NCBI GenBank assembly: GCA_902774685.1
Contig: CACYJH010000024.1
Span: 1 to 64,000, forward strand
Direction of reading: 5' to 3'
Source of the DNA: an uncultured Methanobrevibacter sp.
GTDB lineage: Archaea; Methanobacteriota; Methanobacteria; Methanobacteriales; Methanobacteriaceae
Length of the DNA: 64,000 bases
Shown piece after piece: positions 61,732 through 64,000 of the stretch. Position 1 is the first letter of the stretch, and each line of letters begins with the position of its first letter. The notes beneath the pieces are model-generated. The model searched no databases, was not told the origin of the DNA, and saw nothing but the letters and a program-made list of their open reading frames with translations. The position numbers and the translations under genes were made by a program.

Positions 61732-62005
61732 CAAATCACCTTTTAAAAAAAATAGAATTTAAAGTTTTTAACTTAGAAAACTTGTACTAAAAGCAATAAT
61801 ATTAACTTTAAAAAAATTGTACTATACGCATAAAAGTTTTTAGTAATTTACATAATTTTACAGTAATTAATTTATAGTTTATTTTATTTAAACTTAAAAT
61901 TATATATAATAAAAAACAAAAATTAAAATGTTATATTAATTAACAAAGATTTTTAACTAAAATTTTTATTAAATTAACAATTATTAAATAATATAAGTGA
62001 TTATT

Positions 62006-63106
62006 ATGGAAAAAGTCGTTCTTGCATTCAGTGGAGGATTAGACACCACTGTATGTGTTAAATTATTGGAAGAAGAATATAATTATGAAGTAATTACTGC
62101 ATGTGTTGATGTTGGTCAACCTCCTGAAGAATTGGAAAAATCCCAAAATTCTGCAGATAAGATCAACACTGGTAAACATTACATCATAGATGCTAAAGAT
62201 GAATTTGCAAATGAATACATTGCAAGAGGAATCAAGGCAAATGCAGAATATGAAGGATACCCATTAAGCACTGCACTTGCAAGACCTTTAATTGCAATGA
62301 AAATCATTGAAATTGCAGAAAAAGAAGGCGCAACTGCAATTGCACACGGATGTACCGGAAAAGGAAATGACCAATTCAGATTCGAGGCTATCATCAGATC
62401 AATGTCTGACTTTAAGATCATTGCTCCAATTAGAGAAATGAACTTAACAAGAACTGAAGAAGTGGCTTACGCAAAAGAGCACGGCCTCAACTTATCTTAT
62501 GATAAAATCTACAGTATTGATGAAAACCTTTGGGGAAGAGCTATCGAAGGGGATGTGCTTGAAGACCCTGCAAATGAACCTCCTGAAGAAATCTATGAAT
62601 GGACCAAATCTGCTGAAGACGCTAAAGACACTCCTACAAAAGTAAGCATTGAATTTGAAGAAGGAGTTCCTGTAGCTATCAACGGAGAAATGATGGGACT
62701 TGTAGACCTTATCAACAAGGCAAATGAAATTGCTGGTGAAAACGGGGTAGGTAGAGTTGACATCATCGAAAACAGAATGATTGGTCTTAAAAGTAGGGAA
62801 ACCTATGAAGTTCCAGGTGCTAAATTATTGATTGCCGCTCACAAGGCTTTAGAGCAATTGGTCTTAACTGTAGATGAATTAAGATTTGCAGATTATATGA
62901 GCACATTATATGCTGATTTAGTTTACGAAGCATTATGGCAAGAGCCTTTAAGAGAAGACCTCGATCAAGCTTTCGACCATATGCAAAGAAGAGTTAGCGG
63001 TGAAGTTGTAATGAAATTATTCAAAGGTTCCATTCAACCATTAAGCAGAAAATCACCTTTCAGCTTACACAGCATTGAACAAATCACCTTTGAAGACAAA
63101 TGCTAA
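62006..63106 (+). CDS. argG: Argininosuccinate synthase
   Basis: 366 residues joining citrulline and aspartate with ATP in arginine synthesis. ATP loop [18 protein letters not shown] at the N-terminus, [16 protein letters not shown] (about 84-99), [18 protein letters not shown] (about 111-128) and the C-terminal [18 protein letters not shown] little shorter than bacterial ArgG (about 400). ATG 62006 follows AAGTGAT; the GTG at 61997 is part of that SD. A 10-bp hairpin terminator follows. Confidence 0.97.
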
Positions 63107-63305: not shown

Positions 63306-63374
63306 TCAGCAAATATGCAAAAACTTTATAAATAAAAAAAAATAAATAATAATCCGAGAATAATATGTACTCAA
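63306..63374 (-). CDS. Candidate 22-residue hydrophobic peptide in hairpin locus B
   Basis: TTG at 63374, 22 codons, TGA. The peptide begins MSTYYSRIIIYFF and ends LFIKFLHIC. The SD GGGGGTGAT (63381-63389) is nearly the full anti-SD complement and lies 6 nt upstream, as in locus A. Codons 2-7 lie in one arm of a 13-bp inverted repeat, so translation could be gated by RNA structure. Length equals that of the 38383-38451 ORF. Translation is unproven. Confidence 0.35.
   Translation of the reverse strand: MSTYYSRIIIYFFLFIKFLHIC
63325..63334 (+). promoter_or_regulatory. TATA box of hairpin locus B (plus strand)
   Basis: TTTATAAATA preceded by the BRE-like GCAAAAAC. The predicted start is near 63352, just before the inverted repeat. 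It lies inside the minus-strand 22-codon ORF. Confidence 0.5.
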
Positions 63375-63445
63375 TTACATATCACCCCCTTTACATATGT
63401 TTTTTTTAAAAATTAAACCTTTGCATATTATTCTCGCCTTTTTTA
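63352..63445 (+). ncRNA. Candidate structured RNA B, about 90 nt
   Basis: CGAGAATAATATG (63355-63367) and CATATTATTCTCG (63424-63436) are a perfect 13-bp terminal stem, extendable by a G-U and an A-U pair, with CCTTTTTT directly after it. Inside, ACATAT/ATATGT (63377-63382, 63395-63400) forms a second helix around a C-rich loop. With the TATA box 25 nt upstream this is a complete small transcription unit between convergent argG and sfsA. No known RNA family recognised. Confidence 0.5.
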
Positions 63446-63550: not shown

Positions 63551-64000
63551 TTAGTTTTCTAAACTAAAATCAAGTGAGTTTCCAACCAATTCAATATTTT
63601 CCAAGGTGTTTTCAGTTTTATAGACAAGAATCTCCACACCTTCATCGTATGCCCTATTCAAAGTTTTGGAAAACTCGGGATCATTTTCCCAATTAGGTCT
63701 GAAACTATTCCCATTCGGATGTTCAATCAGGAAAAATACAACTGAACGGATTCCCTCTTTTTTAAGTGAAATAAGCTCTTCCAAATGTTTTCTGCCTCTT
63801 TCAGTAGGGGCATCTGGAAACTGTGCAATTCCATCCTTGATTAAAGTGACTGATTTTACTTCAACATATGTTTCATCAATCGGATTCTTATTGCTGTCTA
63901 GATTAGCCAAATAAATGTCTATTCTTGAATTGCCAATTGTCTTTTCAGATTCCACAACCTCATAGCCAGACAATTCCTTAATTTTTTTATTTGAAATAGC
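63551..64000 (-). CDS. sfsA: SfsA-family protein, C-terminal part
   Basis: The reading frame is open to the window edge; about 149 C-terminal residues are visible. Signatures: SRIDIYLANLD, TYVEVKSVTLI (nuclease-like ExK), FPDAPTERGRKHLEELISLKKEGIRSVVFFLIEHP. SfsA was named for sugar fermentation stimulation in E. coli; the fold combines an OB-like and a PD-(D/E)XK-like domain and binds DNA nonspecifically. The true start lies beyond 64000; the TTG at 63973 is internal. Confidence 0.9.
   Translation of the reverse strand, partial: AISNKKIKELSGYEVVESEKTIGNSRIDIYLANLDSNKNPIDETYVEVKSVTLIKDGIAQFPDAPTERGRKHLEELISLKKEGIRSVVFFLIEHPNGNSFRPNWENDPEFSKTLNRAYDEGVEILVYKTENTLENIELVGNSLDFSLEN

Follow-up and report, generated by a model that had tools for sequence, protein, structure and literature searches.

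What is encoded in the gap that separates an argG-like from an sfsA-like gene in the DNA of an uncultured Methanobrevibacter sp.? The stretch analysed, here called the window, comprises 64,000 nucleotides, and a preliminary description had placed in this gap a candidate for a stand-alone RNA gene of about 90 nt bounded by a 13-bp perfect terminal stem, with a TATA box before the stem and a tract after it. Inspection of the locus bore out each of these elements (Table 1). The region from 63355 to 63436 is a perfect 13-bp hairpin enclosing a loop of about 56 nt, and the plus-strand RNA folds with a z score of -6.7, none of 200 shuffles being equally stable. Perfect inverted repeats of 13 bp that contain 4 or more G/C and are separated by 30-90 nt are present at only two places in the window and were found in none of 30 dinucleotide shuffles. 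ARAGORN detected no tRNA or tmRNA in the window, and no Rfam family reached its gathering score there, the best weak match being mir-723 (E = 6). As far as can be read from the sequence, the element has its own promoter and terminator, and the segment 63354-63444 almost certainly encodes an RNA of about 90 nt as a stand-alone gene beside argG. This reading is supported because the element is conserved, its stem covaries, the spacing to the promoter is fixed and paralogues exist, as described below.

Table 1. Coordinates of the RNA gene candidate and its surroundings in the window
Feature	Position	Strand	Remarks
argG-like gene (argininosuccinate synthase)	61997-63106	+	syntenic upstream neighbour, recognised by sequence
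Antisense GGGGGTGAT and 22-codon TTG ORF	63306-63389	-	judged not a gene
TATA box TTTATAAA	63325-63332	+	centred about 27 nt upstream of the stem; predicted +1 at about 63354
Closing stem, 5' arm CGAGAATAATATG, 13 bp	63355-63367	+	pairs perfectly with the 3' arm
Core hairpin ACATAT / CACCCCCTTTAC loop / ATATGT	63377-63400	+	displays the anti-Shine-Dalgarno-like loop
U-tract and UUAAACCUUU	63400-63423	+	second target-pairing element; its 15-mer ATATGCAAAGGTTTA matches exactly, in 19 genomes, only this RNA and PIN leaders
Closing stem, 3' arm CATATTATTCTCG	63424-63436	+	pairs perfectly with the 5' arm
CCTTTTTT (T6 tract)	63437-63444	+	probable archaeal oligo-T terminator, directly 3' of the stem
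sfsA-like gene	63551-64000	-	convergent neighbour, recognised by sequence

The opposite strand had also drawn attention, since the loop contains there a Shine-Dalgarno (SD)-like sequence that was thought too strong to be due to chance and to drive a TTG ORF of 22 codons. To call it the best SD-like sequence of the window was fair: GGGGGTGAT occurs once (minus strand, 63389-63381) and GGAGGTGAT is absent. The match is indeed not accidental, but the reason is a different one: the RNA has a conserved anti-SD loop, to which this sequence is complementary, and the sequence does not work as an SD. The ORF (63374-63306) exists as well; its translation from this SD is contradicted by an ATG-TAA start-stop located directly after the motif and by the lack of conservation of the ORF, which ranges from 7 to 41 codons across 13 orthologues and is missing in one. 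Although the window holds this sole GGGGGTGAT, translation of the antisense strand from it has a practically negligible probability.

Of 19 Methanobrevibacter genomes searched, 13 carry the element, designated class A, with an identity of 86-100%, and in most of them it is flanked by argG and sfsA; the locus in G003 lies at a contig edge, and a 14th copy, in G017, is truncated where the contig stops. The named records that bear the hairpin all belong to Methanobrevibacter. Matches in IMG/VR and matches of the 17-mer outside Methanobrevibacter lack the closing stem and were set aside as chance or SD antisense. The genome paper of M. ruminantium M1, which is treated here as G012, lists three non-coding RNAs (PMC2812497).

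The core TATCACCCCCTTTACAT was found again at unlinked loci, where the promoter spacing is kept and the closing stems are quite different (GAACTAATCCTA/TAGGATTAGTTC, GAATTATGAACT/AGTTTATAATTC, AAGGACTAAATC/AGATTAGTCCTT and GGGATTGTCCTT/AAGGGCGATCCC, among others). Over 16 aligned copies the invariant loop core reads CxTATCACCCCC-TTTACxT. Because a MAFFT alignment of the whole paralogues misaligned the stems, an alignment anchored on the stems, with N as padding, was used instead. The covariation check in relatives that had been proposed for this locus turned out in favor of the structure: each of the 12 closing-stem pairs shows double-sided changes over the family, with 95% of the cells paired, and the covariation score of the whole structure (both helices) was 0.650, as compared to 0.194 for shuffles and no more than 0.153 when partners were slid, values from an alignment that itself leans towards structure. 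A cross-pairing control of the arms, which is independent of that alignment, showed that 8-12 of 12 positions pair (mostly 12) when both arms come from the same copy, versus a mean of 5.8 when they come from different classes. A covariance model recovered 42 copies in 16 of the 19 genus genomes and had no match in 42 other archaeal genomes. Averaged over 34 family copies with unrelated stems, the TATA score has its maximum at -25 to -30 relative to the start of the stem, a fixed spacing by which a transcript would begin with the stem, and many copies carry a T-rich stretch after the stem. The RNA gene, the covariation and the family are thus established by computation, and by these sequence comparisons the RNA is class A of a multi-copy family in the genus Methanobrevibacter that was previously undescribed.

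Two further elements resemble family members. One, in L157 (G013:C26:11861-11944, minus strand), is an additional and divergent copy of class A type, in which the closing stem is unchanged and the loop reads CUAAUACCCCCCCCCUUUUUACAUAG. The other, at 1400-1600 of L014 (G027, another genus), is a longer hairpin with a AUAUUCACCCCCUUAAAUCGUAUG core that might be a distant relative; the covariance model does not recover it.

The loop AUAUCACCCCCUUUACAUAU is complementary to AUGUAAAGGGGGUGAUAUG, the SD and AUG of the mRNA of a PIN protein encoded at another locus, and the RNA loop is colinear antisense to the PIN leader and start site. In the 19 genomes, exact ATGTAAAGNGGGTGA is found only in family RNAs read backwards or at PIN start sites, and the exact 15-mer ATATGCAAAGGTTTA only in class A RNAs and PIN leaders. 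When 250 leaders taken from the fetched loci were ranked as targets, the 11 PIN orthologues occupied ranks 1-11 (-35.6 to -53.1; overall mean -19.6, s.d. 7.6), a ranking that is not independent for some genomes, as PIN had first been noticed through sequence hits; the PIN genes of G004, G008 and G013 were found by protein homology alone. Compared to shuffled leaders, the loop-only duplex reached z scores of -4.5 to -8.8 with PIN orthologues, while PIN paralogues that directly follow ImmA and have no leader for the most part gave values between about 0 and -3, and a single one reached -4.0. After the cost of unfolding both partners was subtracted, the net energy with the GCAUAU form of the RNA was -18.5 to -40.0 kcal/mol for PIN orthologues and -2.9 +/- 2.4 kcal/mol for control leaders (n = 80). 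Classes B, C and D pair with PIN leaders less well than the class A GCAUAU form. In M. ruminantium M1 the predicted duplex has 42 bp over about 47 nt and spans the SD and AUG, and in other genomes two or more paired elements are separated by looped-out stretches of the leader. RNAs with UUUACAUAU (G007, G008, G012 and G013) go along with leader elements of the AUGUAAAG type, and most genomes with the RNA sequence UUUGCAUAU have leader elements AUAUGCAAAGG; this covariation of leader and RNA may be a single evolutionary event. Computation thus establishes an exceptional complementarity to a start site at a different locus, conserved across genomes.

The PIN gene is the third of an Xre-ImmA/IrrE-PIN operon, preceded by an HTH_3 gene and a Peptidase_M78 (ImmA/IrrE) gene. 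Its product has about 153 amino acids and an alpha/beta fold (AlphaFold pLDDT 93.6), with D8 and E92 invariant. The sequence models of Pfam for PIN did not match the protein, and among the VapC/PIN structures that the model matched in Foldseek the best was VapC4 from P. horikoshii (TM 0.69-0.72); a PIN fold with conserved acidic residues is present in the model. These characteristics point to a VapC-like PIN protein, a probable toxin. An operon of the same composition, Xre-COG2856-PIN, was predicted to be a three-component toxin-antitoxin system by Makarova et al. 2009 (PMC2701414). The part of that work dealing with this operon mentions no RNA layer, unlike what is proposed here.

We consider it likely that the RNA acts in trans and, in genomes that have the PIN gene, pairs with the PIN leader and start site, covering the SD and AUG and so blocking translation of the probable toxin. 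In this mechanism the closing stem (13-15 bp) would lock the 5' and 3' ends of the RNA, leaving a single-stranded interior with the anti-SD loop AUAUCACCCCCUUUACAUAU and the second element UUUUUUUUAAAAAUUAAACCUUUG on show. The anti-SD loop would nucleate on the PIN SD, and pairing would then zip along the leader to occlude ribosome entry. These steps are inferred: the RNA would be transcribed, and the duplex would form in the cell. The effect on PIN would most naturally be repression, with activation or decay as alternatives, and the PIN protein, VapC-like in its modelled fold, may be toxic. The other family members may have targets of their own.

The distribution of the two partners is not tightly correlated. 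No PIN orthologue was detected in the genome of the window (87% complete), in G006 and G015 (both incomplete) or in G011 (99% complete), and the RNA is intact in each of them; conversely, G005 has the PIN leader, and a class A RNA was not found in it. Either PIN is not the whole story of the RNA or it was lost from the genomes that lack it. In the genome of the window and in G011, where the RNA was found and a PIN orthologue was not, the RNA may have other targets or be a relic. The anti-SD sequence of 16S rRNA is AUCACCUCCU, and the loop of the RNA resembles it. The C-rich loop could accordingly bind a large number of strong SDs in competition with the 3' end of 16S rRNA, acting as a global dampener or decoy for which PIN is merely the best target. 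Such a role would agree with the retention of the loop in PIN-less genomes, with the anti-SD core being the sole part common to the paralogues, and with the weaker pairing to other leaders, such as L087 (class A, -9.6) and L077 (class C, -27.0). It is nonetheless unlikely, as the control leaders net so little energy, the exact start-site 15-mers are exclusive to PIN, and the second element UUAAACCUUUG, which has no role in SD recognition, has a unique match to PIN leaders.

That the loop is colinear with the PIN leader read in antisense, and that some genomes have one partner alone, could also be understood if the RNA were the relic of an inverted duplication of that leader, complementary by descent and with little current regulation. 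We regard this origin as quite improbable, since the stem covaries, the promoter spacing is kept, the loop is near-invariant in divergent genomes and the leader elements beyond the SD are conserved too. The terminal inverted repeats, the copies at several loci and the AT-rich surroundings are what a DNA-level element, such as a MITE-like inverted repeat or a bidirectional terminator, would show, and there would then be no RNA gene. However, the repeats vary between copies and the interior is conserved, which is the reverse of a transposon, the TATA box lies outside the repeat at a fixed spacing, and the class A copies are mostly syntenic at argG/sfsA, so that the chances of this explanation are very slim.

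The proposed trans-acting RNA has partial counterparts among known systems. In the parts of PMC3510493 that describe it, sRNA162 of Methanosarcina mazei, likewise from a methanogen, base-pairs in trans and thereby hides a ribosome binding site, as is proposed here. It differs in being a 191-nt primary transcript with three stem-loops that pairs via a single-stranded linker, in targeting a transcription factor and in having homologues confined to Methanosarcina; the two RNAs are set side by side by description, with no sequence relationship shown. The LhrC RNAs of Listeria monocytogenes, as portrayed in sections of PMC4132741, are also a multicopy family, and UCCC motifs are discussed for them; they are bacterial and have an adhesin target, whereas in the archaeal RNA a loop inside one closing stem is complementary to a start site over a long stretch. 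In type I toxin-antitoxin systems, according to the relevant passages of PMC8309996 and PMC6563280, an antisense RNA acts against translation of the toxin mRNA, the same relationship as suggested here, and the toxins are usually small hydrophobic peptides, in contrast to the VapC-like PIN protein. The portion of PMC12390103 concerned with their distribution gives type I pairs as bacterial, so far from Proteobacteria, Firmicutes and Tenericutes, and our literature search found no description of a type I-like system for Archaea. By predicted pairing, an RNA would here engage the mRNA of a probable toxin, in the manner of an RNA antitoxin. Unlike in type I systems, the RNA (at argG/sfsA) and PIN do not form a linked module with a small hydrophobic toxin: PIN lies at a distant locus, where Xre and ImmA/IrrE are already part of its operon, and the coordinates of the two genes in M1 (2.572 and 1.497 Mb for RNA and PIN) differ by about 1.07 Mb. 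The pair is not filed as type I because of this lack of linkage and the kind of protein, a putative toxin by its similarity in fold to VapC.

Archaeal sRNAs with a phylogenetically supported target are few. In the present case the RNA and a start site that it could target are both conserved among Methanobrevibacter of the rumen, organisms that contribute a large share of ruminant methane. The 42-bp duplex over SD and AUG that is predicted for M. ruminantium M1 can be tested directly. Should the PIN protein be toxic, this would be an RNA-controlled toxin in an archaeon. A broader and more tentative possibility, to which we give less than even chances, is that the genus-wide family constitutes a type-I-like antitoxin layer on VapC-like toxins, over Xre-ImmA-PIN, and that paralogues came to address additional start sites, as class C might that of a VWA-domain gene.

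Class D and class B RNAs are found close together in L168 (G012:C1:961000-966000; 1592-1684 and 2395-2484) and are also neighbours in G007:C48 and G008:C189. Between them, in G012 and G008, there is an ORF with a Panacea/SocA-like antitoxin domain (PF13274 for the G008 protein), and given this arrangement it is possible that the RNA family is tied to toxin-antitoxin-like genes.

Other start sites were considered as targets. A LytTR-linked membrane gene with the conserved start site NTGTAAAGGTGGTTATATG was rejected because its pairing with class A (-3.8 to -9.6) is weak; this start site is conserved upstream of a membrane protein and downstream of a LytTR-like gene in L087, L156, L297, L299, L302 and L305. 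Near position 1500 of L077 (G015:C38), the leader AAAACTAATGTAAATGGGGGTAATTATATG of a VWA-domain-like gene has a net energy of -27.0 kcal/mol with the class C RNA, which makes it a candidate second target, for that class, as judged by predicted pairing. Two or three ACTAGAAACTATTGGGTGAT-like repeats, to which a portion of the class C RNA is complementary, are located 3' of a membrane-protein-like gene in L075 (about 1400-1560, G003:C69) and L076 (about 1440-1620, G002:C25).
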